Shown: one piece after another, positions 26,276-45,349 of the stretch
Numbering within the stretch: position 1 is the first letter of the stretch
How the letters are laid out: each line of letters begins with the position of its first letter
Assembly (NCBI GenBank): GCA_026005175.1
Contig: BPKO01000001.1
Span: 558,001-622,000 of the forward strand
Direction of reading: 5' to 3'
From: Candidatus Tectimicrobiota bacterium
Lineage (GTDB): Bacteria; Tectomicrobia; Entotheonellia; Entotheonellales; Entotheonellaceae
Length of the DNA: 64,000 nt
Notes under the pieces: generated by a model
The model's database searches: none
The model's input: the letters and a program-made list of their open reading frames with translations, nothing else
Told to the model about the DNA's origin: nothing
Program-made: the position numbers and the translations under genes

Positions 26276-26399
26276 CGCGGGTGAAAGCAGGAAACACCTC
26301 GCTCATAGAACCCGTGCCAATGCGCTGTCCTTTGTGATAGGATGAAAGCCTGCCCGCCGGCTTTGGCGTATTTCACACCCTTAGCGACGAGGAACCCCG

Positions 26400-27346
26400 A
26401 TGCGCTACGGATTCTACTTGCCAACGCGCGGCGCCACCGCCACGCCAGAGGCCCTGGCCACCCTGGTGCAGCGGGGCGAGGCCCTGGGCTTTCACTCCGT
26501 GACGATTGCCGACCACGTCGTCTTTCCGGTCGACATCCGCTCGCCTTATCCCTACACCCTGAGCGGGGCCTTCCCCGGCCAGGGAGACGCCCTGGAGCAG
26601 CTGACGCTTATGGCCTTTGTCGCCGCCAAAACCCAAACCCTGCGCCTGATAACCAGCGTCATGATCCTGCCTTACCGCAACCCGGTGCTGGCAGCCAAGA
26701 TGCTGGCCACGGTGGACGTTCTTTCCGGCGGGCGGGTCACCGTCGGCGTGGGGGGTGGGCTGGCTGCGCGAGGAGTTCGAAGCCCTTGCGGCCCCAGACT
26801 TTGACCACCGCGGCGCGGCGAGCGACGAGTACCTGCAGATCTTCAAGACCTTGTGGACGCAGGACCCGGCTTCTTTTACGGGACGGTTTTACCGCTTTGC
26901 GGCGCTGCGCTGCCTGCCGCAGCCGGTGCAGAAGCCCCCACCCGCCCATCTGGATCGGCGGCCACAGCCGGCCGGCCCTGCGCCGCGTCGCCCGCTACGG
27001 CGACGGCTGGCACCCGGTGGGGGCCAACCCCGCCGTGCCGCTGCGCCCGGCCGAGCTGCAGGCCGCCCTCGACGAGCTGCGCCGCTTCTGCGAGGCAGCG
27101 GGCCGGGACTTTGACACCCTGACCATCGCCTACAAGGCCCCCCTATACGACGCCGCCGCGGCGCTGCCCGGCGGGCAGGAACGCCGCCCCTTTAGCGGCA
27201 CGCCGGCGCAGGTGGCCGAGGATATCCACACTTACCGCCGCCTGGGGGTAAGCGAGCTCATCTTTGACTTCCGCAGCGAACACCTCGCGGAGAGCCTCGA
27301 GCGCATGGAGCACTTTGCCACCGTCATTCGCCCGGCCGCCGAATGA
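26400..27346 (+). pseudogene. Luciferase-like (LLM class) flavin-dependent oxidoreductase, two frameshifts
   Basis: About 315 residues of the bacterial luciferase-like TIM-barrel family, using reduced FMN or F420. The N-terminus MRYGFYLPTRG, the IADHVV strand, SVMILPYRNPVLAAK and VDVLSGGRVTVGVG are family motifs. A LWTQDPASFTGRFYRF segment and the IWIGG strand follow. Losing one G near 26754 and one C near 26938 restores the whole barrel through SELIFDFRSE. The ATG follows a GAGGAA site. The HSVTIADHV form with the RSPYPYTLSG insert resembles F420-type members, but the cofactor is not certain. Confidence 0.75.
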
Positions 27347-27359
27347 GGCACAAAAGGGC

Positions 27360-27389
27360 TTAACAGCGCTCTGCCGGTTCGTCTATGAT
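27360..27389 (+). promoter_or_regulatory. Sigma-70-type promoter for the acyl-CoA degradation operon
   Basis: TTAACA (27360-27365), an 18-base spacer and TATGAT (27384-27389) lie 33 bases ahead of the ATG at 27423. Five of six positions match in each box. It separates this operon from the monooxygenase gene. Confidence 0.55.
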
Positions 27390-27422
27390 AAAGGCGTACC
27401 CCAAGCTGCGGAAAGGACACCG

Positions 27423-28221
27423 ATGCGCCAGGACTACGAAACGCTGCGGGTGAGTCGCTCCCCGGACGGCTTCATCGTCACCGTGGAAATGCACCGCCCC
27501 GAGGCCCTCAACGCCATGAACACGGCCATGGGGCGCGAGCTGCTCGACTGCTTCGAAGCGCTCTTTTGGGACAAGCAAACGCGTGTCGTCATCCTCACCG
27601 GCGCCGGCGACAAGGCCTTCTGCGTTGGCGGCGACCTCAAAGAGCGCCAGGGCATGAGCGACGAGGCGTGGCGCGAGCAGCACGTCATTTTCGAGCAGGC
27701 CGCCTTTCGCCTGCTGCGCTGCCCGCACCCGGTGATTGCCGCGGTGGAAGGCTACGCCATGGGCGGCGGCTGCGAGCTGGCGGTGCTCTCGGACTTCATC
27801 GTCGCCAGCGAAACCGCGGTGTTTTGCCGTTCCTGAAGTGACGCGGGGGCATTTTCCCCGGCATTGGCGGCACGCAGCTGCTGCCGCGCATCGTCGGGGC
27901 CCCCTTTGCCAAGGAGATGATTTTCACCGGCCGCCACGTGCCGGCCGCCGAGGCCAAAGCGGTGGGGCTGGTCAACCACCTGGTGCCGGCCGGGACAGGC
28001 CAGGGCCAAGGCCATGGAAATTGCCGCCACCATCGCCCGCAACGGCCCCATCGCCGTGCGCCAGGCCAAAAAAAGCCATCGTCTGGGGGCTGGAGACCGA
28101 CCTGCAGACGGGGATGATTCTCTCCATCGAGGCGTACAACGAGACCGTGCACACCGAAGACCGCCTCGAAGGCGTGCGCGCTTTTAACGAGCGGCGCCCG
28201 CCGCAGTTCAAAGGCCGCTAG
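27423..28221 (+). pseudogene. Enoyl-CoA hydratase/isomerase family protein, several frameshifts
   Basis: A crotonase-fold protein of about 263 residues, start ATG 27423 after GAAAGGA. The first 135 residues are intact: MHRPEALNAMN, the oxyanion-hole AFCVGGDLKER, and AVEGYAMGGGCELAVLSDF. The frame then breaks near 27824 (T4), 27846 (G5), 27990 (G3) and 28068 (A7). Removing one base at each yields a normal C-terminal half with GGTQLLPRIVG, EAKAVGLVNHLVP and FNERRPPQFKGR. The second catalytic Glu position of true hydratases reads Glu in the rebuilt frame. It heads an operon with acyl-CoA dehydrogenase and a lyase, consistent with branched-chain or isoprenoid acyl-CoA breakdown. Confidence 0.75.
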
Positions 28222-28250
28222 GGGCACCGGCTGGCAAAGAGGAGTGCGTC

Positions 28251-29428
28251 ATGGTCGACATTCGGATTTCCCTCACCGAAGAGCAGCTGGCTTTAAAAAA
28301 AGCGGTGGCCGAGCTGTGCAAGCTTTATCCCCCTTCGTACTGGCGCGAGCTCGACGAAAAGCGCGAGTATCCGGAAGCCTTCGTGCAAGAGCTGACCAAA
28401 GCCGGCTACCTGTCGGTGCTCATTCCCGAAGAGTACGGCGGCGGCGGCCTGGGCATCCTGGAAGCCGGGCTTATTCTGGAAGAAATCAATCGTTCAGGTG
28501 GCAATGCCGCCGCCTGCCACGCGCAGATGTACATCATGGGCACCCTGCTGCGCCACGGCTCTGAAGAGCAAAAAGCGCGCTACTTGCCCAAAATCGCCAG
28601 CGGCGAGCTGCGCCTGCAGGCCTTTGCGGTGACCGAGCCCAATTCCGGCTCGGACACCACCAAGCTGCAGACCACGGCGGTGCGCCACGGCGACGTCTAC
28701 GTGGTCAACGGGCAGAAGATCTTCATCTCGCGCGTGCTGCAGTCCGACCTCATGCTGCTTTTGGCGCGCACCACGCCTTTGGACAAAGTCCGCAAGAAGA
28801 CCGAGGGGCTGTCGGTGTTCCTCATCGACATCCGCGGGCCCTCAAGGGGGCTGCAGGTGCGGCCGGCTGCGCACCATGATCAACCACTCGACCCAACATC
28901 CTGTTCTTTGACAACGTGGAGATTCCGGCCGACAGCCTCATCGGCGAGGAAGGAAAAGGGATTTTCTTATATTCTCGACGGCATGAACGCCGAGCGCATC
29001 CTGGTGGCCTCGGAGTCGATTGGCGACGGGCCGCTGGTTCATCGACAAGGCGGTGCAGTACTCCAAAGAGCGCGTCGTCTTCGGGCGGCCCATCGGCGCC
29101 AACCAGGGGGGTGCAGTTCCCCATTGCCAAAGCGCACATGGCCGTAGAAGCCGCAGACCTCATGCCGGCTCAAGGCGGCGGCGCTGTTCGACGCCGGCTT
29201 GCCGTGCGGCGCCGAGGCCAACATGGCCAAGTACCTGGGGGGCCGAGGCCGCCTGGGAAGCGGCCCAACGCCTGCCTCGACTGCCACGGCGGCTACGGCT
29301 TTGCTGCCGAGTACGACGTGGAGCGCAAGTTCCGCGAGACGCGGCTGTACAAGACGGCTCCGGTGAACAACACCCTGGTGCTGGCTTACGTGGGGCAGCA
29401 CGTGCTGGGCATGCCGCGTTCGTACTGA
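28251..29428 (+). pseudogene. Acyl-CoA dehydrogenase, many single-base frameshifts
   Basis: A FAD acyl-CoA dehydrogenase of about 385 residues. The first 200 residues are intact and include LTKAGYLSVLIPEEYGG, the FAD-binding QAFAVTEPNSGSDT and VNGQKIFISR. From about 28855 to 29270 the frame changes eight times; every change is repaired by removing one G or C from a two-to-six base run. The rebuilt tail contains DGMNAERILVASESIGDGRW, GANQGVQFPIAKAH, LDCHGGYGFAAEYDVER and YKTAPVNNTLVLAYV. GAGGAG precedes the ATG. It would make the enoyl-CoA used by the hydratase upstream. Confidence 0.8.
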
Positions 29429-29447
29429 TCACGGGAAAGGAGGAGCC

Positions 29448-30395
29448 ATGGGCACGTTCATCAGCATCTGCGAAGTGGGCCCGCGCGACGGCTTTCAGAT
29501 CGAGCCGGAGTTTATTCCCACCGAGCTGAAAGTGGAAGTCATCGACCGCCTCAGCGCCACCGGATTGCCCAAGATCGAGGTCACCTCGTTTGTCCATCCC
29601 AAAGCGGTGCCGCAGCTGCGCGACGCCGAAGAGGTGATGGCCAAGATTACCCGGCGGCCGGGGACCGTTTACGCCGCCTTGGTGCCCAACGACAAGGGCG
29701 CCATGCGTGCCCTTGCCGCCGGCGTGGACCAGATCCACACCGTGCTGTCGGCCAGTGAGAGCCACAACCTGGCCAACGTCAACATGACCATCGAGGAATC
29801 CCTGACCAAGCTGGAAGCCGTGGCGCGCCTGGCGCACGAGGCCGGCATCCCGCTTTATAGCGGCATTTCCACTTCCTTTGGCTGTCCCTTTGAAGGCCCA
29901 GTGCCGCTGGGGCGGCTGGAGTACATCGTGGCGCGGCTGGTGGACATGGGCGCCACGGGCATCGGGCTAGCCGACACCACCGGCATGGCCAACCCGGCGC
30001 AGGTGCGGCGCACCCTGGAGTACTTGCTGCCGCGCTTCCCGGGCGTGACGTGGAGCCTGCACACGCACAACACGCGCGCCATGGCCATCCCCAACATCCT
30101 GGCGGCCATCGACTGCGGCGTGCGCCACTTCGACGCCTCTATTGGCGGCCTGGGCGGCTGCCCCTTTGCGCCCGGCGCCACGGGCAACGTCTGCACCGAG
30201 GACCTGGTGCACTGCCTGCACGCCATGGGCTACGAGACCGGCATCGACCTTGACCGCCTCATCGAGACGGCGCAGCGCGTCGAGCAGATCCTCGGCCGCA
30301 CCCTGCCCGGCCAGGTGATGAAAGCCGGCAAGTGGGACCGCCGCTACCCGCTGCCCGAGCGCGTCGCCGCCCGCCTGGCCGCCGCGGCGCCCTAA
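29448..30395 (+). CDS. Hydroxymethylglutaryl-CoA lyase-like HMGL-family protein
   Basis: A 315-residue TIM-barrel lyase. CEVGPRDGFQ holds the catalytic Arg13 and metal Asp14, LHTHNTRA near residue 204 gives the two metal His ligands, and GGLGGCPFAPGATGN places the catalytic Cys at about residue 239, the HMG-CoA lyase signature. It starts at ATG 29448 behind AAGGAGG, 20 bases after the acyl-CoA dehydrogenase, and keeps a clean frame. In this operon it should cleave HMG-CoA or a close analogue to acetoacetate (or a homologue) and acetyl-CoA as the last step of a leucine or isoprenoid-like pathway. Confidence 0.9.
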   Translation: MGTFISICEVGPRDGFQIEPEFIPTELKVEVIDRLSATGLPKIEVTSFVHPKAVPQLRDAEEVMAKITRRPGTVYAALVPNDKGAMRALAAGVDQIHTVLSASESHNLANVNMTIEESLTKLEAVARLAHEAGIPLYSGISTSFGCPFEGPVPLGRLEYIVARLVDMGATGIGLADTTGMANPAQVRRTLEYLLPRFPGVTWSLHTHNTRAMAIPNILAAIDCGVRHFDASIGGLGGCPFAPGATGNVCTEDLVHCLHAMGYETGIDLDRLIETAQRVEQILGRTLPGQVMKAGKWDRRYPLPERVAARLAAAAP

Positions 30396-30660: not shown

Positions 30661-31905
30661 GTGGAGCGGCGGCGCGTGGTGATCACCGGCTTGGGCGCTA
30701 TTGCCCCTAACGGCATTGGCAAGGACGCCTTCTGGGAAGCCCTGGTGGCGGGACGCTCCGGCATCGACCGCATTACCCGCTTTGACGCCAGCCGCTATCC
30801 CTGCCAGATCGCCGGGGAAGTGCGCGACTTTCGCCCCACCGACTACCTCGAGCCCCGGGAAGCCAAGCGCCTGCCGCGGGTGGCCCAGTTCGCCATCGCC
30901 GCTGCCAAAATGGCCATGGCCGACGCCGGCCTGGAAGTGACGCCCGACAACCGCAAGGAGATTGGCGTCTGCTTTGGCACCTCTTTGGGCAAGGCCGAAA
31001 CTTTCGAAGCTGATCACCTCGCCTTCCTTGACAAGGGCATACGGGTCCTCAACCCCCTGACCTTGGTTGAGATTCCTTCGCATGGCGTTACGAGTCACGT
31101 GGCCGTCGCGTTGGGAGTGGAAGGCGTCTGTGGTACTGTCGCCACTGGATGTACCAATGGACTCGACGTCGTACAGTGGGGATACACACAAATCCAACTT
31201 CAACGGGCTCGCGCCATCCTGGTAGGCTGTGCCGAGGCAGTTCTGACACCATTCACGTTTGGCGTGGTATGCGCCTCTCGAGTGCTCTCTACGCGCAACG
31301 ACGATCCCCAAGGGGCCTCTCGTCCCTTCGAGAAGTATCGAGACGGAATGGTGCTCAGTGAAGCCGCAGGCACTTTACTCCTCGAAGACTACGAGCAGGC
31401 AAGGGCACGTGGTGCCCCTATGTACGCCGAGATCCTCGGCGGTGCCAGTGGCCGTGATGGCAACGACTTGATTCACTGTGATCTCAGCGGCGCAGGCATG
31501 GCTCATGTCATGGCAGAAGCCTTGCATCATGCAGCCGTGTCACGCGCGGACATCGACTACATTAACGCCCATGGCAACAGCTTGCCAAACTACGATTTAG
31601 CGGAGACAAATGCTATCAAAACTGTGTTTGGCTCTTTGGCGTACAACATTCCCATAAGTTCTATTAAATCTATGATCGGCCAACCCTTTTCAGCGGCCGG
31701 TTGCTTGCAGGCAATAGCCTCTTGCTTAACCCTAAAACATAGCATCATTCCACCGACAATTAACTATGAGACGCCCGATCCTCTGTGTGATTTGGATTAT
31801 GTACCTAATCGTGCCCGCCGCGCGCGCGTTCGCACCCTTCTCGTTCACGTGCATGGTATCGGAGGCATGGATTCAGCTCTGGTCTTAGCAAAGGTGAAGC
31901 CCTAA
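30661..31905 (+). CDS. FabF-like beta-ketoacyl synthase with altered active site
   Basis: A 414-residue condensing enzyme starting at GTG 30661 behind GGAGGGG. The nucleophile Cys164 (ATGCTNGLD), His304 (NAHGNS) and Lys336 (SIKSMIG) are present. The second catalytic His, which in FabF lies in KSMTGH, is Gln341 here (KSMIGQPF). The window also has a canonical FabF at 59313, so this copy is likely specialised, perhaps for a secondary metabolite or an unusual fatty acid. No acyl carrier protein is adjacent; a sensor kinase follows 12 bases later. Base composition drops from about residue 120 on, though the frame is intact. Confidence 0.85.
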   Translation: MERRRVVITGLGAIAPNGIGKDAFWEALVAGRSGIDRITRFDASRYPCQIAGEVRDFRPTDYLEPREAKRLPRVAQFAIAAAKMAMADAGLEVTPDNRKEIGVCFGTSLGKAETFEADHLAFLDKGIRVLNPLTLVEIPSHGVTSHVAVALGVEGVCGTVATGCTNGLDVVQWGYTQIQLQRARAILVGCAEAVLTPFTFGVVCASRVLSTRNDDPQGASRPFEKYRDGMVLSEAAGTLLLEDYEQARARGAPMYAEILGGASGRDGNDLIHCDLSGAGMAHVMAEALHHAAVSRADIDYINAHGNSLPNYDLAETNAIKTVFGSLAYNIPISSIKSMIGQPFSAAGCLQAIASCLTLKHSIIPPTINYETPDPLCDLDYVPNRARRARVRTLLVHVHGIGGMDSALVLAKVKP

Positions 31906-31917
31906 AAGGACAGTGCC

Positions 31918-34449
31918 ATGGCCATACATCTGTTTGCAGGGCTTCCTCTATGGATCATGAATCTAGCCATAGGGATGCTCGTCTATATACGAGCACCACG
32001 AAAGCCGGCAAACCAGGCTTTCTTCTGGTTTGTGATGACACTTGTGGCGTGGTCTTTTGGTGTAAAAATGACCCATATTTATGCGATCACCCCTTTGGGT
32101 GTCTTTTGGGGAAGATTTGCTTTTGCATCGGCAAGCCTCGCTGCTAGCGGTTTTATTGCATTTTGTCAAGCTTTTCCAAATTCTCTTCATTTATTTTCTT
32201 GCAGAATCGGGTATGTTTTCCTGTTACTTAGCATTCCATTTGTGATCGCTTCCTTCTCTCCATGGATACTGGAAGCAACAAGCCTTGACGAGGCCGGACG
32301 TCTCAAGACGCACTATGGCCCTCTCTATCCGCTCTGTGCGCTTTTCCTCCTCACCGCCTTTGGCTACGGGCTCTGGACTTTGATCCGGAAGTGGCGCACG
32401 GCCCGCGGGCGCAGCCGGCTGCAGCTGCAGTACCTGGGGCTGGGCCTCTTCTTGCTTATTGCCGGCGCTCTGACCACCAACCTCCTCATCCCGGCCCTGC
32501 TGCGCACTTCCGCTTTTAGCGCCTACGGGCCGTACTTCACGCTGTTTTTCGTCGGCTTCACCGCCCACGCCATCGTCCGCCACCGCCTCATGGACGTCCG
32601 GCTCATCGTCCGCCGCGGCGTGACCTATGGCCTCTCTCTGGGCAGCACGGCCGGGCTGATGTGGCTGATGGGGGCGCTGGGGCGGCGGCTGTGGTCGCCG
32701 GAGCAGGTCACGGCTGCGGGCTTCCCGCTGCTGCTGGGAATCGGGGGGGTGGTGGTCTTCCACCCGCTGCGCCTTGCCGTCCAGCGCCTGCTCGACAAGT
32801 ACTGCTACCGCGAACCGTACGATTACCAGCAGGCCACCCGCACCATCAGCCAGGCTCTGGCCAGCCAGCTCCACCTCGCGCCGCTCTGCCAGCACCTTGC
32901 CGCCTTCTTGCAGGCCACCCTCAAGGTGGAAGCGGTGGCCGTTTACCTCTGCCAGGCGCCCTCCCGCCTCGAGCGCCAGGCCTGGCAGGGGGACGACACC
33001 TCAGCAGAGGTGCCCGCGGTGCTCGACATGCCTCAGCTCTTGGCCTTTTTGAGCCGCACCGCCATGCCGGTGATGCGCGAGGAGCTCGAGCGCTGGCACG
33101 GCGTGGAAGACGTGCCGCAGCTTGCCAAGGCCTTTGCCCTCCTGCGCAGCGAGGTGGTGGTGCCGCTGCCTGTGGAGCAGCGCCTCATCGGCCTCGTGAC
33201 GCTGGGCGCCAAGCTCTCCGGCGACCCTTTTTTCGTGCACGACCTGACGTTCCTTGGCACCGTGAGCCACCAGGCCAGTGTGGCGTTGCGCCGGGCGCAG
33301 CTGCACGAAGAAGTGATCTGGATGAAGGAGTACAGCGAAAGCATCCTGCGCCAGATGGAAAGCGGAGTCATCGCCGCCACCGCCCAAGGCCACCTCACGG
33401 TAATCAACGCCGCCGCCGCCCGCCTGCTTGGCATCGAGGCCGCCCGCGCAATAGGCCGCCACGTGGCCGAGGTCCTGCCGCAGGAACTCAGCGCCCCGCT
33501 GCTCGACACGCTGCACGGCAAAGGCGCCCTGGCGCACTGCGAGGTGGCCGTGCCGCGCCCTGCAGGCGGCACGCTGCCCCTGGCGGTGAGCACCTCGGTG
33601 CTGCCGGCCCACGGCGCCGAGCCCGCCGGCGCCATCCTCGTCTGCCACGACCTGTCGCGCATCAAGGAACTCGAAGAGGACAAGCGCCGCATGGAACGGC
33701 TGGCCGCCCTCGGCGCCTTTGCCGCCGGGATTGCCCACGAGATCAAGAACCCCCTGGTGGCCATCCGCACCCTGGCGGAACTGCTGCCCGAGCAGTACGA
33801 CGACGCCGAGTTCCGCGAGGCCTTCAGCCAGGTGGCGCTGCAAGAAATTTCCCGCATCGATGCCCTGGTACACCGCCTGCGCACCCTGGGGGCCGCCTCG
33901 CCCGCGTCGCGGCGCCCCATCAGCGTCTTAGAGCCCCTGGAAGAAACCCTCACGCTGCTTTCCGGCGAATGCAACAAGCGCCGCATCCGCCTCGTGCGCG
34001 CTTACCACAAACCCCTGCGGCCCGTGCTCGGCGACCACGATCAGCTCAAGCAGGTGTTCCTCAACCTCTGCATGAACAGCCTTGAAGCCATGGACGAAGG
34101 AGGAACGCTGACCGTTACCGTGGGCATGACGCCAGGCCCAGATGGCCCGCCGCGGCTCTTCGTGCAGGTGGCCGATACCGGCCCCGGCATTCCTGACGAC
34201 TTGCTGGGGTCCATGTTCGAGCCGTTTGTCACCTCCAAAGCGGGGGGCAGCGGCCTGGGGCTGGCCATCTGCAAGGGCATTGTCGAGTCCCACCGCGGCA
34301 CCCTCCAGGCTGCCAACCGCTCTGACACCAATGGCGCGGTGGTGACCGTGACGCTGCCGACCGTACAGGGAGACGAAGTCCATGCACTCGCTGCTTCTGA
34401 TGGCGGAGAGCCCGCCGCAGCGGCAAGCGCTGCAGCAGCTCCTTGGTGA
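31918..34449 (+). CDS. Membrane sensor histidine kinase (7TM-GAF-PAS-HisKA-HATPase)
   Basis: An 843-residue kinase. Residues 1-285 hold about eight hydrophobic helices resembling the N-terminal 7TM sensor region of some kinases. A GAF-like domain follows (about 300-455), then PAS (475-580), and the dimerisation domain with His607 in AAGIAHEIKNPL. The ATP-binding domain has the N box NLCMNSLEAM, G1 DTGPGIP and G2 GSGLGLA, so it should be active. The last 22 residues (Ala-rich) are read out of frame from the start of the next kinase gene, a 68-base overlap. The first 120 codons are AT-rich and the rest GC-rich, marking a junction near 32280. Confidence 0.88.
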   Translation: MAIHLFAGLPLWIMNLAIGMLVYIRAPRKPANQAFFWFVMTLVAWSFGVKMTHIYAITPLGVFWGRFAFASASLAASGFIAFCQAFPNSLHLFSCRIGYVFLLLSIPFVIASFSPWILEATSLDEAGRLKTHYGPLYPLCALFLLTAFGYGLWTLIRKWRTARGRSRLQLQYLGLGLFLLIAGALTTNLLIPALLRTSAFSAYGPYFTLFFVGFTAHAIVRHRLMDVRLIVRRGVTYGLSLGSTAGLMWLMGALGRRLWSPEQVTAAGFPLLLGIGGVVVFHPLRLAVQRLLDKYCYREPYDYQQATRTISQALASQLHLAPLCQHLAAFLQATLKVEAVAVYLCQAPSRLERQAWQGDDTSAEVPAVLDMPQLLAFLSRTAMPVMREELERWHGVEDVPQLAKAFALLRSEVVVPLPVEQRLIGLVTLGAKLSGDPFFVHDLTFLGTVSHQASVALRRAQLHEEVIWMKEYSESILRQMESGVIAATAQGHLTVINAAAARLLGIEAARAIGRHVAEVLPQELSAPLLDTLHGKGALAHCEVAVPRPAGGTLPLAVSTSVLPAHGAEPAGAILVCHDLSRIKELEEDKRRMERLAALGAFAAGIAHEIKNPLVAIRTLAELLPEQYDDAEFREAFSQVALQEISRIDALVHRLRTLGAASPASRRPISVLEPLEETLTLLSGECNKRRIRLVRAYHKPLRPVLGDHDQLKQVFLNLCMNSLEAMDEGGTLTVTVGMTPGPDGPPRLFVQVADTGPGIPDDLLGSMFEPFVTSKAGGSGLGLAICKGIVESHRGTLQAANRSDTNGAVVTVTLPTVQGDEVHALAASDGGEPAAAASAAAAPW

Positions 34450-36400
34450 GGCTTACACGCTCTTTGCCGCTGCTTCGTGTGACGACGCCCTGGAGTACTT
34501 GCGCCTGACCCCCATCGACGTGCTCATCGCCGCCGCCGAGGAGTGGTCGCCGCTGCTCGAGCGCCTGTGCGCGCAGGCCAAGGCCTTGCAGCCCCACTGC
34601 GTGACGCTGTGCCTCGCCCCGGGCGCTCCGGAAGAGATCCCCCAGGTTGACTACGTCCTGTCCGGGCCCCTTTCTTCTTCAGCGCTGCAGCGTACCCTGA
34701 AGCAGGCGCTCGACAGGCAGCAGCTGGCGGCAGAGCTCGAGCGGCTGCGGCACCAGAAGGCCCAGGTCCAGCCCATTGCCCCTGCCAATGGGGAGCACGG
34801 CCCCACGCTGGCCAGCGTAGGGCACCTCCTGCGCCACTTTGCCAAGGCCTTCAGCACCCCCTTTGACCTGGAGCAGGCCCTGGGCCTTTTCCTGGAAGCC
34901 GTGGGCGACTTTTTGCGCCCCAGCCGCATGGCCGTCCTGCTTCCGGACGCTGCTGGCGACGCCTTCCTCGTGCGGGCCCAGCGCGGCCTGCCCGCCAAAG
35001 TCACCGCCCCCCTGCGGCTGCCCGCCGATGCCCCTCTGGTTTGCTGGCTGCGCAGCGAGGCCCGCCTCTTGCACCGCGCCGAGCTCGAAGGCCACCGCGC
35101 GTCGCCGGAGGCGCTGGCCATGCTGCGCCCCCTGCAAGCGCTCAAAGCCGTGGTCTGCGTGCCCTTGCTGGCCTCGGGCACCCTGGTGGGCATCCTCACC
35201 CTGGGCGAGCGCGTCACCGGCACGCCGTATGGCGAGGCCGAGCTCGAAACGCTCTTTAGCCTGGCCAGCCATATGGCCGTAGCGGTGCAGGGCATTGCCC
35301 TGCACCACGCCGTGCAGGAGCAAAAGGTGTTTACCGAAAAGATCCTGCGCTACATGAGCAGCGGCGTCATCACCATCGGCACCGACGAGAAGATCCGCCT
35401 GTGCAATCACCGCGCCGCGCAGATCCTAGGCACTTCCTGGGAGCGGGTGCTGCACCAGGACCTGCGCACCCTGCCCTCGCCCCTGGGCGACCTTCTTTAC
35501 GAGACCCTGCGCGACGGCGTGGCCTATGACCGGCAAGAGGTGGTGCTGGCAGCCGGCAAAGTGCCGCTCCAAGTGAGCACTTACCAGATCTTCGACCAGC
35601 AAGGGGCCGTGGCAGGAAGCGCCATGGTCTTCGAAGACCTCACCGCCCAGAAGCAGCTCGAAGCCGAGCGGCGCCGCGCCGACCAGCTCGACTTCCTCAA
35701 CAAAGTGGTCGGGCGCATGGCCCACGAGATCAAAAACCCCCTGGTCTCCATCCAGACGTTCGTGGAGCTGCTCGAAGAGCGCTACGACGACGCCGAGTTC
35801 CGCCACACCTTCTGCCAGGTGGTGCGCCGGGACGTGCGGGCCATCAACAGCATCACTGACAAGCTGGTGAGCTTTGCCAGCAAGCTCCCCTATGCGTTCG
35901 AGTACGGCGACCTCAACGCGGTGGTCCAGCGCCTGGCACACACCGGCGTGCTTCCGCCCCCAAATGGCGAAAAGCCCCCCGAGGCCACTGTGCGCCTCGA
36001 GGTCCGCTGTGCCGAGGAGCTGCCTCCGGTAAAGCTCGACCCCGAGCAGCTCCTCAAGGCCCTGGGCTACCTGGTTGCCTTTCTCTCCCAGGGCATGCCA
36101 GAAGCAGGCCGCATCCGCGTGACCACCCGCCTGGGCTACCGGGGGTTACCGGCTACCCCTCACCCCTGGGTCTGCGTCGTACTGACCGGAGAGGGCTGCA
36201 CGCTGCCCGCTGAGGAGCTGGAGCTGCTCTCTGATCCCTTCAGCATGGAGCGCCGCACGCTGGTCGATGTGGGACCCTGCGTGAGCCAGAAAATCGTCGA
36301 AGAGCACGGCGGCCGCCTCGAGGTCCGCCGGGAGAAAAACGGCGACACCACCTTCGTCGTGGCGTTGCCCGCAACCACGGAGGCATGGGAAGCCGCATGA
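34382..36400 (+). CDS. Histidine kinase-like protein with degenerate receiver and ATP-binding domains
   Basis: A 672-residue protein with an N-terminal receiver-like domain (1-115) whose phosphoacceptor is lost (DVLIAAAEE), a GAF domain (about 150-310), a PAS domain (320-430) and a dimerisation domain with His448 in RMAHEIKNPL. The C-terminal ATPase domain is degenerate: the N-box Asn is missing (LLKALGYLVAFLSQ), G1 reads LTGEGCTLP without its Asp, and the G2 glycines are replaced (DVGPCVSQKIV), while the following EEHGG is kept. It probably cannot phosphorylate itself but could be phosphorylated by a partner. It sits between two intact kinases with overlapping ends on both sides. Confidence 0.85.
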   Translation: MHSLLLMAESPPQRQALQQLLGEAYTLFAAASCDDALEYLRLTPIDVLIAAAEEWSPLLERLCAQAKALQPHCVTLCLAPGAPEEIPQVDYVLSGPLSSSALQRTLKQALDRQQLAAELERLRHQKAQVQPIAPANGEHGPTLASVGHLLRHFAKAFSTPFDLEQALGLFLEAVGDFLRPSRMAVLLPDAAGDAFLVRAQRGLPAKVTAPLRLPADAPLVCWLRSEARLLHRAELEGHRASPEALAMLRPLQALKAVVCVPLLASGTLVGILTLGERVTGTPYGEAELETLFSLASHMAVAVQGIALHHAVQEQKVFTEKILRYMSSGVITIGTDEKIRLCNHRAAQILGTSWERVLHQDLRTLPSPLGDLLYETLRDGVAYDRQEVVLAAGKVPLQVSTYQIFDQQGAVAGSAMVFEDLTAQKQLEAERRRADQLDFLNKVVGRMAHEIKNPLVSIQTFVELLEERYDDAEFRHTFCQVVRRDVRAINSITDKLVSFASKLPYAFEYGDLNAVVQRLAHTGVLPPPNGEKPPEATVRLEVRCAEELPPVKLDPEQLLKALGYLVAFLSQGMPEAGRIRVTTRLGYRGLPATPHPWVCVVLTGEGCTLPAEELELLSDPFSMERRTLVDVGPCVSQKIVEEHGGRLEVRREKNGDTTFVVALPATTEAWEAA

Positions 36401-38799
36401 GCAGCGAATGCCCCACCAGCCGCATTCTGATCGTCGACGACGAGCTGGGGCCGCGCGAGGCCCTGCGCATGATCCTCAAAACGCGCCACGCGGTGGCTAC
36501 GGCCAGCTCCGGCGCCGAAGCCCTGGAGCTCGTCCGCCGCTGCCCGCCTGACCTCGTCTTTCTCGACATCAAAATGCGCGAGATGGACGGCATCGAAGTG
36601 CTCAAAGCCATCAAGGCCTTCGATGCCACCATCGAAGTGGTCATGATGACGGCCTACGCCTCGCTGGATACGGCACGGCAGGCCATGAGCTACGGCGCCT
36701 CGGAGTACCTCATCAAACCCTTTAGCAAAGCGGAAGTGGAAAACGCGGTGGCCAAAGCGCTGGCGCGCCGCGCTGCCCATACCGGCACGCAGCACGAAGT
36801 GCGAGTGCTGCTCGAGCGCATGCGGGCTCTGGCAGAAGCGGCCCAGCGGGGCACGGACGCCGACAGCCTGGCGCAGATGGGGCGCAGCATTCTGGCGCAG
36901 GGCTGCCAGGTGCTGCAGGCGGCGGCCGCCGTCCTGCACCGCGTCGCTGATGACCGCTTCCCGTGCCAGCTCGCCTTTCAGCTGCCGCCGGCGCACCTTA
37001 CCGCCCTCGAGCATCCTGCCTGGCACGCGACGCTCGAGCACGCCTTCTTGACCGGCCAGCCGCTTCTGGTGAGTGCCATGGAGGCGCCGGCAAGCGAAGC
37101 CTCGCCGGTGCTGCAGCAGCTGGCTTGCCAGGCAAGCGCCCTCTTTCCCGTGGTGGTGGGGGAGGAGCCGCTTGGCCTTCTGGCTTTTTTCTATCCAGAG
37201 CCAGCGCGCGTGCCAGCAGGTTGGCAAGAGCGCGGCCGCACGTTTGCCGATCTCATGGCCGTGGCCATCCATACCCACCGGCGCTGGCAAGCTTCCCGGC
37301 AGGAAGCGGTCCAGCAGGCCCAGCGGGCTGCCCAGCTCGGCATCCTGCGCGAAGTGACGCGCGTCATCATGGACTGCCTTGACCTGGAAGCGATGCTGCA
37401 CGCCATCGGCGAGCAGCTGCGCACCGGCCTGGGATACAGCGGCGTCCACCTCTGGCTGTATGACCCTGCCACCGGCGCCTTCCAGGACGCCTACCACGCC
37501 GGCACCGCACCGGACTGGCAGCCATCCCTGCAAGGCGTGCCCGCCGCTTTGGAGGTGCAAGACACGGCTGCCGGCCAGGTCATCGTCGCGCCGTTGGTGC
37601 TGGACAAGCGGCAAATCGGCGTGGTGCAGCTGCTGCGCCAGCCCCAGCACGGCCCGCTGGCCGACTTCGAGCGCGAGCTCCTCTGCATGGTTCTCGACCA
37701 CCTCGCTCTGGCGGTGAAGAACGCCCAGCTGTACGGCGAGATGTGCCAGACCAAGAGCTACCTCCAAAGCCTCATCGACGGCGCCGGCGATGCCATTTTC
37801 ACCGTCGACACGCGCGACACGATTACTTCTTGGAACAGCAGTGCCGAGCGCCTCTTCCAGTACCCGGCCGCAGAGGTCCTCCAGCGTCCCGTCACCGTGC
37901 TTTTGCCCGAGGCCCCTTACCAGGCGTGGCGGCAAGCGGTGCTGCAGCATGGCTCGGTGCAGCACCTCGAGACGCAGCTGGCGCGGCGCGACGGCACGCC
38001 GGTGGACGTCAGCATGACCCTCTCCCCACTGCGCGGCGCCCACGACGAGATCGTTGGCTTTTCGGCCATCATCAAAGACGTCACCCAGGACAAGCGGCTG
38101 CGCGAGCAGCTGTGGCAGGCAGAGAAGCTCCGTGCGGTTGGCGAGATGGCTGCCGGGGTGGCCCACAACTTCAACAACATCCTCACCACCATCCTAGGCC
38201 ATACCCAGCTCCTGCTCGATGACCCGGGCGACGTGCAAGCGGTGCGCCGCGGCTTAACCATCATCGAAACCGCCGCCCGCGACGCCGCCCACATCGTGCA
38301 GCGCATTCAGACTTTTGCCCGCGGTCACGGCGACGCCGCCTTTATCCTCACCGACCTGGTGCAGGTGGTAAAAGAGGCGGTCGACACCACGCGCCCGCTG
38401 TGGAAGGAGCGCGCCTGCGACGAGGGCCGGCCCATCGACTTGGTTCTCGACCTTGCCCCGGTGCCCCCTTTCTCGAGCCGCGCCGCCGAGCTGCGCGAGG
38501 TGCTCACCAACCTCATCCTGAACGCCGTTGACGCCATGCCCGCCGGCGGCACCCTGACCTTGCGCACGTACACGGAGGGCGCGTGGGCCTGCCTGGAGGT
38601 GGCCGACACCGGCATCGGCATGAGCGACGAGGTCCGGCGGCGCATTTTCGACCCCTTTTTCACCACCAAAGCCGGCAAGGGCTCCGGCCTAGGCCTGAGC
38701 GTCTCCTACACGCTCATCAAGGCCCTGGGCGGCAGCATCGACGTGCGCAGCGCACCCCGGCAGGGAACGACGTTTGTCATCCGGCTGCCCCTGGGCTAA
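36397..38799 (+). CDS. Hybrid sensor kinase: receiver-GAF-GAF-PAS-HisKA-HATPase
   Basis: An 800-residue cytoplasmic protein. The N-terminal receiver has phosphoacceptor Asp57 (LVFLDIKM) and Lys in YLIKPF. Two GAF-like regions follow (about 140-290 and 320-455), then PAS (460-575) and a kinase core with His590 in GVAHNFNNIL, the HNFNN type of NtrB-like kinases. N box NLILNAVDAM, G1 DTGIGM and G2 GSGLGLS are complete. I choose ATG 36397, which overlaps the upstream stop by ATGA; ATG 36385 adds four residues. With a receiver ahead of the kinase it may be the phosphate-receiving and signalling end of the three-kinase set. No DNA-binding output lies nearby. Confidence 0.88.
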   Translation: MSSECPTSRILIVDDELGPREALRMILKTRHAVATASSGAEALELVRRCPPDLVFLDIKMREMDGIEVLKAIKAFDATIEVVMMTAYASLDTARQAMSYGASEYLIKPFSKAEVENAVAKALARRAAHTGTQHEVRVLLERMRALAEAAQRGTDADSLAQMGRSILAQGCQVLQAAAAVLHRVADDRFPCQLAFQLPPAHLTALEHPAWHATLEHAFLTGQPLLVSAMEAPASEASPVLQQLACQASALFPVVVGEEPLGLLAFFYPEPARVPAGWQERGRTFADLMAVAIHTHRRWQASRQEAVQQAQRAAQLGILREVTRVIMDCLDLEAMLHAIGEQLRTGLGYSGVHLWLYDPATGAFQDAYHAGTAPDWQPSLQGVPAALEVQDTAAGQVIVAPLVLDKRQIGVVQLLRQPQHGPLADFERELLCMVLDHLALAVKNAQLYGEMCQTKSYLQSLIDGAGDAIFTVDTRDTITSWNSSAERLFQYPAAEVLQRPVTVLLPEAPYQAWRQAVLQHGSVQHLETQLARRDGTPVDVSMTLSPLRGAHDEIVGFSAIIKDVTQDKRLREQLWQAEKLRAVGEMAAGVAHNFNNILTTILGHTQLLLDDPGDVQAVRRGLTIIETAARDAAHIVQRIQTFARGHGDAAFILTDLVQVVKEAVDTTRPLWKERACDEGRPIDLVLDLAPVPPFSSRAAELREVLTNLILNAVDAMPAGGTLTLRTYTEGAWACLEVADTGIGMSDEVRRRIFDPFFTTKAGKGSGLGLSVSYTLIKALGGSIDVRSAPRQGTTFVIRLPLG

Positions 38800-39503: not shown

Positions 39504-40529
39504 CTAGAGAAACGCCGGCATCACCTCCTGGGCAAAGCGCCGCATCGAGCGCAGCACTTGCTGCTGGCTCAGGTCGCCAAACCAGAAGCTGCAGCTGAAG
39601 TGGTCCATGCCCATGGCCTCTTGGAGCCGCCGCAGCTGCCGGATACAGGTGTCAGGCGTGCCCACCACCAGATAATGCTCCAGCAGCTCCTCGGTGCTGG
39701 GCTCACCGCGAAAGGGGACGGGAATAGCCCTGCCCCGCTCAACGCGCTCGTAGTTATGCCGCAGGCTCAGCGTCACCCGCATGTTCCAGCGCGCCTGCTC
39801 GGCCACCGCTCGCGCCTCGGCAGCACTGTCGGCCACGTACACGGGGCGCTGCGTGCCCACGGTGGGAGGCTGGGCGGGGCGATACGTCGCCAGCAAAGTA
39901 TCGAAGAGCTGCCGGAACTGGCGCAGCCGTGCCAGCGGCACGCCAAAGCCGCCCGACAGGAGGTGAAAGCCGCGCTTGACCGTGGCTTCCACCGACTCCG
40001 GGCTCTGCGCCGTGACCCAGATGGGCGGGTGGGGCCGCTGCAGCGGCTGGGGAAACACCGAGGTTTCGGGAATCTGGAAGTACTTTCCCTCGTAAGTAAA
40101 CGGCTCTCCCCGCAGCGCCAGCAAGAGAATATCCACCGCTTCTTCCCAGCGCTCCCGGCTCTGGCCCAGGTCTTGCCCTAGCCGCTCGAACTCGTAGCGC
40201 TGGTAGCCGCGCCCCAGGCCGACGTCAAGACGCCCGCCGCTGAGCAAGTCGACGGTGGCAATTTCCTCGGCCACGATGAGCGGGTGGTGCAAGGGCAGCA
40301 CGATCACCGCGGTGCCTATCCGCAGGCGGTGCGTCTGGTGTGCCAGGTGCATGGCATAGAGGAGGGGTCGCGACAAGTAGCCGTAAGTCGAGAAGTGGTG
40401 CTCGGCCAGCCAGACGTGGTGAAAGCCGAGTTCCTCTGCCGCCTGGGCCATTTCGGTGCCGCGCGCGTAGACTTCGGCCGCCGGGCGGGCCGCCGGAGAT
40501 TGCATGAGGAGAAAGATGCCAAATTGCAT
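39504..40529 (-). CDS. Luciferase-like (LLM class) flavin-dependent monooxygenase
   Basis: A 341-residue TIM-barrel flavoenzyme with an intact frame. MQFGIFLLMQSPAARP opens the barrel; GFHHVWLAEHHFSTYGYLSRP carries the conserved EHHF seen in alkanal-monooxygenase-like members, and VDLLSGGRLDVGLGRGYQRYEF is the family signature. The C-terminal EEVMPAF end is normal. The full EHHF motif suggests an FMNH2-dependent monooxygenase rather than an F420 enzyme. It lies 30 bases downstream of ilvA in the same direction. The substrate is unknown. Two other LLM genes occur in this window at 26400 and 44336. Confidence 0.88.
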   Translation of the reverse strand: MQFGIFLLMQSPAARPAAEVYARGTEMAQAAEELGFHHVWLAEHHFSTYGYLSRPLLYAMHLAHQTHRLRIGTAVIVLPLHHPLIVAEEIATVDLLSGGRLDVGLGRGYQRYEFERLGQDLGQSRERWEEAVDILLLALRGEPFTYEGKYFQIPETSVFPQPLQRPHPPIWVTAQSPESVEATVKRGFHLLSGGFGVPLARLRQFRQLFDTLLATYRPAQPPTVGTQRPVYVADSAAEARAVAEQARWNMRVTLSLRHNYERVERGRAIPVPFRGEPSTEELLEHYLVVGTPDTCIRQLRRLQEAMGMDHFSCSFWFGDLSQQQVLRSMRRFAQEVMPAFL

Positions 40530-44300: not shown

Positions 44301-44335
44301 GTCGCAATCACACGGCGATCACGCGAGGGTTGAGC

Positions 44336-45349
44336 ATGCGCTTCAGCGTCTTTTCGGTGACCGATCACTACCCCGAGGAGCCCCGCAGCATTCGCGACTT
44401 CTACGCGCAGCTCCTCGATGAAATGGTGCTGGCCGAAGAGCTGGGGTTCTCGGCGTACTTTGTCGCCGAGCACCACTTCCACGAGTACGGCATCGTGCCT
44501 TCGCCGCCGGTGCTGCTTGGCGCCGCGGCCCAGCGCACGTCCCGCCTTGGGCTGGGGGTAGCGGTGTCGGTGCTACCATTTCACCACCCGCTGGCGGTGG
44601 CCGAAGAATACGCCATGGTCGACCAGCTCACCAACGGCCGCCTTGTCTTGGGTGTGGGCTCCGGCTACCTGCAGCACGAGTTCGCAGGCTTTGGCATGGG
44701 GCCGTGGGAAAAGCGCTTCCGCTTTGACGAGGCGCTGGCCATCATGCTCAAGGCCTGGGAAGGCGAGCCCTTCTCTTACCATGGTGTCTATTATCACGTA
44801 CACAACACGCGCCTGGCGGTGACCCCGCTGCAGCGGCCACACCCGCCTCTGTGGATCGCCATCCTGCGTGCCGAAGCGGCCTACCACGTGGGCAAGCAGG
44901 GCCGCTACCTCATGCTGGTGCCTTATGCCACCTGTGACACGCAGGCCGACCTGCAAGGCGTCATCGCCCAGTACGCGCAGGGCTACGCCGCTTCGGGCAG
45001 CGGCACGCCGCCCGACGTGGCGGTGGCCTTGCACACCTACGTTTCGACTAGCCCGGCGGCCGCCCGTGCCGAAGCAGAAGCGGCGCTGGACCGCTACGTG
45101 CGCACCCGTCTTTACGCTCGGCGCCGCAGCTACGACGAGCTGGAGCAGGCGGGGCTTATTCTCTTTGGCGACCCCGACACGGTGGCGGCGCGCATCGAGG
45201 CCTTGGCAGCCATGGGCATGACGCACCTGCTGATTCTTACTAACTTCGGGGCCTTGCCCGCCAAGCGGGTGCAGGCGTCGCTGGAGCGCTTTGCACGCCA
45301 GGTGATGCCGCGCTTTGCCACGCCGCCGGTTACCCCGGGCTACCCTTGA
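44336..45349 (+). CDS. Luciferase-like (LLM class) flavin-dependent monooxygenase
   Basis: A 337-residue TIM-barrel flavoenzyme. RFSVFSVTDHYPEEPRS opens the chain; FVAEHHFHEYGIVPSPPVLL contains the EHHF motif and VDQLTNGRLVLGVGSGYLQH the usual ligand loop. The barrel is complete to LERFARQVMPRF. ATG 44336 is preferred over TTG 44330 because GCGAGGG is better spaced. It is the first gene after the strong promoter, followed by a carboxymuconolactone-decarboxylase-like gene and a P450, which suggests an oxidative pathway on one organic substrate. The substrate is not predictable. Confidence 0.88.
   Translation: MRFSVFSVTDHYPEEPRSIRDFYAQLLDEMVLAEELGFSAYFVAEHHFHEYGIVPSPPVLLGAAAQRTSRLGLGVAVSVLPFHHPLAVAEEYAMVDQLTNGRLVLGVGSGYLQHEFAGFGMGPWEKRFRFDEALAIMLKAWEGEPFSYHGVYYHVHNTRLAVTPLQRPHPPLWIAILRAEAAYHVGKQGRYLMLVPYATCDTQADLQGVIAQYAQGYAASGSGTPPDVAVALHTYVSTSPAAARAEAEAALDRYVRTRLYARRRSYDELEQAGLILFGDPDTVAARIEALAAMGMTHLLILTNFGALPAKRVQASLERFARQVMPRFATPPVTPGYP

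Follow-up and report, generated by a model that had tools for sequence, protein, structure and literature searches.

Recurrent loss of catalytic residues in the middle protein of a ketosynthase-histidine kinase gene cassette

Results

Organization of the locus

The window analysed here, a stretch of 64,000 nucleotides from the genome of a Candidatus Tectimicrobiota bacterium, contains three overlapping kinase-like open reading frames, all on the + strand (31918-34449, 843 aa; 34382-36400, 672 aa; 36385-38799, 804 aa). A ketosynthase gene, which a preliminary description of the locus had left out, lies on their upstream side and belongs to the same cassette. The genes and the domains of the middle protein are as follows:

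30661-31905, + strand: KS, FabF-like cassette ketosynthase (Pfam ketoacyl-synt N and C)
31918-34449, + strand: HK1, 7TM histidine kinase, HisKA_7TM-GAF-PAS-HisKA-HATPase_c (Pfam; motifs; 110 homologues)
34382-36400, + strand: MID, the middle gene, pseudo-receiver-GAF-PAS-HisKA-pseudo-HATPase (Pfam, motifs, structure model)
34382-34711, + strand: MID pseudo-receiver domain (motif positions; receiver fold match)
34865-35290, + strand: MID GAF domain (Pfam)
35333-35653, + strand: MID PAS domain (Pfam)
35690-35881, + strand: MID HisKA/DHp domain, with the His448 codon at 35723-35725 (Pfam, alignment)
36029-36385, + strand: MID dead ATP-binding domain (Pfam, alignment)
36397-38799 (longest ORF from 36385), + strand: gene 3, receiver-GAF-GAF-PAS-HisKA-HATPase_c (Pfam Response_reg and others; motifs)

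Twelve bases separate the KS stop codon from HK1. The HK1 and MID reading frames overlap by 68 bases. For MID and gene 3, the overlap depends on the start codon of the latter: it is 4 bases (ATGA) with the ATG at 36397, which is preceded by GGGAAG, and 16 bases with the ATG at 36385. The overlaps of 68 and 4 bases reported earlier agree with these coordinates, the latter with the start at 36397. Pfam and motif searches likewise agree with the earlier view of the first gene as a membrane kinase and the third as a receiver-led kinase, both with full ATP-binding motifs. The catalytic motifs of HK1 are complete (His607, Asn720, Asp753, GLGL) and, judged by them, the protein is catalytically intact; in gene 3, the receiver motifs and the kinase motifs are all intact. 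Base composition was compared as a check for recent acquisition: GC3 is 0.85 in MID and gene 3, 0.78 in HK1, 0.83 in the genome's FabF gene and 0.64 in KS, whose overall GC content (0.58) is below that of its neighbours (0.65-0.67).

The surroundings present two further features. Upstream of KS (27264-29529), an enoyl-CoA hydratase gene and an acyl-CoA dehydrogenase gene are broken across reading frames, a pattern that suggests decay or indels from assembly, and an intact HMG-CoA lyase-like gene lies just downstream of them. Three luciferase-like monooxygenase genes are found within 20 kb (26342-27346, 39504-40529 and 44330-45349).

Features of the middle protein

Pfam recognizes in MID the succession GAF-PAS-HisKA, followed by a weak HATPase_c match (32 bits, versus 82 and 93 in the neighbouring kinases); the HisKA and HATPase_c matches are both above the Pfam cut-off, and no Pfam receiver match is found in the protein. 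The phosphoacceptor His448 is present and is accompanied by E449 (H+1) and N452 (H+4). In the ATP site, the N-box Asn is replaced by Phe567 and the G1 Asp by Gly603, and the G2 box reads VDVGPCVS. At the amino-terminal end, the phospho-Asp position of the receiver is occupied by Ala, the Thr and Lys positions are replaced and so is the acidic pair, with one acidic residue left in the pair region. On these criteria (acidic pair, Asp, Thr/Ser, Lys) we rejected the idea that this receiver can accept phosphate. The preliminary description had listed the retention of the His and of the GAF/PAS domains together with the loss of the N-box Asn, the G1 Asp, the G2 glycines and the receiver Asp, and every one of these assignments holds.

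A structure model of MID (mean pLDDT 82, falling below 50 in the ATP-lid region) shows a receiver fold over residues 1-115 (VIA-align Z of about 17-18 with receivers of known structure). The DHp-CA part matches histidine kinases with Z about 20, and DivL (4q20_B; Z 20.5, rmsd 3.8, 221 residues) is among the best matches, tied with other kinases; a common fold gives no proof of MID function. The protein is predicted to be soluble.

Occurrence of the cassette across phyla

Searching for related loci with a single protein retrieved general kinases only. A MID profile was used to search 386 genomes, each from a different species and with most families represented by one or a few, and then the phyla of genomes G089 (95 genomes), G028 (3), G019 (3), G280 (68), G254 (7), G128 (35), G031 (17) and G091 (2). 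These genomes are mostly drafts and their ORFs were called mechanically. We found 107 MID loci in at least nine phyla, the window's lineage included; the count follows the genome collection's own grouping and leaves two MID carriers (G340 and G092) outside. The order KS, 7TM kinase HK1, MID, receiver-led gene recurs across these phyla, a conservation that had been put forward as a check on the locus.

KS lies directly upstream in 61 of the 66 loci with contig room; the other five include at least two (L155, L218) in which KS is broken or slightly farther away. Many loci of the G089 family carry two 7TM kinases in tandem. In the window and in the G089 family, the product of the receiver-led gene is a receiver-PAS-kinase; elsewhere the gene encodes receiver-HD-GYP, receiver-sigma54-Fis or receiver-kinase-receiver proteins. 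A gene for a B12-type radical SAM protein is often present upstream of KS in the G019, G254, G280 and G128 lineages. At one locus (L171, G475:C333), the kinase is preceded by two closely spaced KS-like genes; in the phylum of G028, the cassette is followed by a large gene which by eye is of an RND/MMPL-like exporter type (L080:14013-16346, L114:3990-6332). In the open-access literature we found no description of a ketosynthase-histidine kinase cassette or of a KS partner.

Catalytic residues are lost in the middle protein and kept in its neighbours

The phosphoacceptor His is found in all 110 HK1 proteins and all 47 gene-3 kinases, and in 25 of 105 MID proteins. HK1 also keeps the N-box Asn (109/109) and nearly always the G1 Asp (106/109). 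As a control, 78 other histidine kinases were collected by similarity; among them, scorable sequences have the His in 75/76 cases, the N-box Asn in 75/75 and the G1 Asp in 75/75. The 80 MID proteins out of 105 without the His compare with 0.9% of HisKA domains in a published census (PMC12632262). By these sequence counts, residue loss recurs in MID and spares its neighbours.

Scoring H for the His and CA for the N-box Asn plus the G1 Asp, the 105 MID proteins fall into 11 H+/CA-, 34 H-/CA+, 46 H-/CA- and 14 H+/CA+. As the last group keeps all three tested residues, the MID family, judged by these positions, is not exclusively one of pseudokinases. The broken states are nearly fixed per lineage. 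In the G089 phylum, the sister group of the window's protein, the His is replaced by Asp and the ATP site is dead in all 46 species; in the G280 phylum, the His is replaced by Gln and the ATP site is intact in all 31; in the G128 phylum, the His is kept and the ATP site is lost in 9 of 11, the same state as in the window. Throughout all lineages and all states, N at H+4 (105/105) and E at H+1 (101/105 scorable homologues) are maintained. In the phylum of G019 (L078:7218-11690, L112, L113), it is HK1 that has Asn for the G1 Asp and MID that keeps the Asp; a swap of roles between the two proteins is possible there.

Alignment with homologues had been suggested as a way to see whether the loss is conserved, and indeed the ATP site is dead in the window and in the whole sister group. 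Intact ATP sites in homologues at the same position had been regarded as a sign of decay in this strain only. Such homologues exist, but 34 of the 48 have lost the His, and the dead site is common to a family of another phylum. Decay in one strain was rejected on the strength of the 46 relatives sharing the dead site and of the dN/dS values below 1 described below. With DHp and ATP-binding domains still recognizable and a loss of catalytic residues that is conserved among relatives, the window's MID is, as far as residues can tell, a conserved pseudokinase.

Repeated change and purifying selection

On a tree of MID, built without the columns of the His, the N-box Asn and the G1 Asp, parsimony requires at least five changes at the His and at least three at the ATP site. 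Since species are not independent, such counts are the fair measure of repeated loss, although by themselves they give no direction of change. The window's MID is sister to the MIDs of the G089 phylum (support 99), and its dead G2 box, VDVGPCVS, resembles IDVGPAVS and its variants in the 46 species of that other phylum. Such a common remnant implies that the loss of the ATP site is older than the split or arrived with the cassette.

In the G089 phylum, simple NG86 counts over 21 independent pairs gave a dN/dS of 0.30 for the whole of MID. The value is 0.29 when the dead ATPase domain is taken separately, and 0.14 in the DHp without its His, the most constrained part of the protein in this family. 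By this sequence measure, the dead domain of MID is under purifying selection. Values for HK1 mix tandem copies and were not relied on.

Relationship between MID and the flanking kinases

HK1, MID and the gene-3 kinases form separate clades (FastTree), and in both the HK1 and the MID clades the window falls together with the G089 and G019 lineages. HK1 and MID are more alike in the DHp (identity 0.41) than in the ATPase domain (0.27); for HK1 and the gene-3 kinase the relation is reversed (0.26 and 0.40, respectively), and the DHp domains of MID and the gene-3 kinase are 0.17 identical. This pattern indicates that what MID preserves is an HK1-type dimerization domain. A private, co-evolved HK1-MID interface was looked for and found no support, as DHp identity within a locus (0.41) shows no excess over that between lineages (0.41).

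The ketosynthase and the radical SAM protein

The window's KS keeps Cys164 and His304 and has Gln341 in place of the second active-site His. With 418.9 bits to TIGR03150 (fabF; cut-off 493.75), against 650 for the genome's own FabF, and with Cys-His-Gln instead of Cys-His-His, it was rejected as a FabF equivalog; it passes the broad NF005589 subfamily only. A FabF above the curated cut-off is present in 12 of the 12 genomes tested, and the KS of the cassette is an additional copy, below the FabF cut-off in tested genomes except G031. The Cys is kept in every scored cassette KS. The second active-site His is replaced by Gln in the window, in G019, in G280 and in most of G089, and by Asn in G128 and G254; it is retained in G031's phylum and in three of G089's, and is Ile in G028, where the first His is also lost. 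Nine housekeeping-type, non-cassette ketosynthases, the window's own FabF among them, have Cys-His-His. The active site of KAS III is Cys-His-Asn, so the altered cassette enzymes could still be active.

A CxxxCxxC-type motif was sought by pattern search in the radical SAM protein of the G280 phylum and was missing at 21 of 23 loci (L172-L200); this protein may also be a pseudoenzyme. At L197, the ORF upstream of KS (327-1943) has no Pfam match at all. Together, the features of the KS and the radical SAM protein suggest a ligand-linked role.

Discussion

The conserved gene order, the recurrent loss confined to MID, the purifying selection on its dead domain and the preferential conservation of an HK1-type DHp lead us to favor, at what we judge to be an even chance, the view that MID, itself non-catalytic, regulates HK1 as a partner by pairing with it through the DHp. 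MID would have arisen as a relative of HK1, keeping the DHp of the latter along with a cytoplasmic pseudo-receiver-GAF-PAS input. Pairing of the two proteins, in a heterodimer or a mixed oligomer, would allow signals perceived by the cytoplasmic domains of MID to shift the kinase/phosphatase balance of HK1. HK1 would then transfer phosphate to the intact gene-3 receiver, with a receiver-kinase as output in the window and receivers with HD-GYP or sigma-54 outputs in other phyla. As a dimer needs no more than one working ATP site and one working His, each lineage would be free to lose the His, the ATP site or both in MID. The heterodimers proposed in the preliminary description fit with the neighbourhood of MID, in which an intact membrane kinase with a similar DHp is nearly always present; the heterodimer itself we infer, as we do the direction of phosphate flow, the ligand of the GAF/PAS domains and the role of KS. 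Counting against a single-partner view, one family carries an additional HK1-like kinase, and the partner of MID may be more than one protein.

The same description had also envisioned a relay in which MID is phosphorylated by its neighbours. One could imagine that, as proposed for FasB/FasC (PMC12675982), the ATP-binding domain of HK1 phosphorylates His448 of the window's MID within a heterodimer and that MID passes the phosphate to the gene-3 receiver. The retention of His448, E449 and N452 despite a dead ATP site, and the occurrence of the same state in nine loci of the G128 phylum, speak for such a scheme. This state, however, is found in only 11 of 105 homologues, and the Asp and Gln that occupy the acceptor position throughout the sister group (46/46) and the G280 phylum (31/31) mean that phosphorylation of MID cannot be the conserved function. 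As a general rule the relay falls; in the window, where the His is kept, it could operate, and we regard it as unlikely. The nearly invariant E-x-x-N motif beside the frequently lost His raises the question of whether MID might be a dedicated phosphatase of the gene-3 receiver, all the more so as the conserved His is not essential to HisKA phosphatase activity (PMC12632262). On the other hand, the His does contribute to that reaction (PMC12632262), the E and N might be kept for structure, DivL was shown to lack phosphatase as well as kinase activity (PMC4211667), and the DHp of MID is of the HK1 type, differing from the one in the gene-3 kinase. We find a phosphatase role distinctly unlikely.

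It is also worth considering that the DHp of MID might, in the manner of DivL, bind a phosphorylated receiver as an input and feed back to HK1. The constraint on the DHp in the His-less family and the appearance of DivL among the top structural matches of MID would be in keeping with this, but the likeness to DivL, tied as it is with that to other kinases, is common to all histidine kinases, and such a read-out function seems to us highly improbable. Hardly any weight can be given to the idea that MID is a decaying pseudogene or an assembly artefact. The split fatty-acid genes at 27.2-29.5 kb do point to indel errors or decay nearby; MID, however, is a single open frame of 672 codons that aligns with its relatives throughout, its DVGPxVS remnant is common to 46 species, and dN/dS in relatives is far below 1; for the family as a whole, the idea is refuted. 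A frameshift inside MID was ruled out by the full-length alignment.

It is tempting to speculate that the cassette as a whole constitutes an undescribed signalling system, in which an altered KS (Cys-His-Gln/Asn), often with a radical SAM protein, would make or bind an acyl ligand, the 7TM kinase and the pseudokinase would read it, and interchangeable outputs (kinase, HD-GYP, sigma-54 activator) would follow. We consider this possible but, on balance, doubtful; if true, metabolic enzymes and kinases would have been turned into sensors together within one cassette. Across at least nine phyla, the findings point to an unexplored link between fatty-acid-type ketosynthases and signalling by membrane kinases. 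Pseudo-histidine kinases were already known from a few cases, namely DivL, RocA and FasC; in the present cassette, a single orthologous position of the operon has lost the His, the ATP site or both in different phyla, next to an intact kinase. The MID slot thereby offers a natural mutagenesis series on the role of a pseudokinase once catalysis has become dispensable.

Comparison with known systems brings out both the likeness and the differences. DivL of Caulobacter, which acts on CckA, shares with MID the histidine kinase architecture and the PAS input; it has Tyr in place of the acceptor His, keeps its ATP-site boxes intact and controls an intact kinase while having no kinase activity of its own (PMC4211667). 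The MID lineage with Gln (31 species) resembles DivL in residue state only, with the acceptor replaced and the ATP motifs kept. The acceptor is reported to be replaced throughout the alpha-proteobacterial homologues of DivL, whereas different residues are lost per lineage in MID, and MID, unlike DivL, has a pseudo-receiver-GAF front end and, next to it, a 7TM kinase that shares its DHp type. The window's MID, which keeps His448 and has lost the N, G1 and G2 boxes, was rejected as a member of the DivL family. RocA is likewise a kinase-like protein without catalytic residues; kinase-dead, it contacts the intact kinase CovS and alters its balance (PMC7028121). RocA is, however, a membrane protein that regulates CovR/S, whereas MID is predicted to be soluble and is co-encoded with HK1. 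In the FasB/FasC/FasA system of group A Streptococcus, two kinase-like proteins and a response regulator are encoded together, as in the cassette, one of the kinase domains is dispensable, the His of that protein is needed, and a heterodimer was proposed (PMC12675982). Both FasB and FasC span the membrane with six TM segments and, unlike the cassette, the system has no KS and no pseudo-receiver. The precedents of DivL, RocA and FasB-FasC indicate that states comparable to those of MID can be functional in bacteria, and a comparable state arose in the laboratory in ChrS (PMC9491836).

The PrsK/PrsR pair of the PEP-CTERM/XrtA system (NCBIfam TIGR02916/TIGR02915) combines, as the cassette does, a kinase with a response-regulator partner. 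The kinase cores of HK1 and MID match TIGR02916 weakly (97.4 and 43.3 bits, respectively), and neither was accepted as PrsK, both being below the curated cut-off of 300. CqsA/CqsS and LqsA/LqsS, for their part, are systems of alpha-hydroxyketone signalling. CqsA and LqsA are not known to be FabF-family ketosynthases, unlike the cassette KS, a candidate signal synthase. In the arrangement of their genes these systems nonetheless come close to the cassette: the gene for the signal synthase adjoins that for a multi-pass membrane histidine kinase (PMC3376566).
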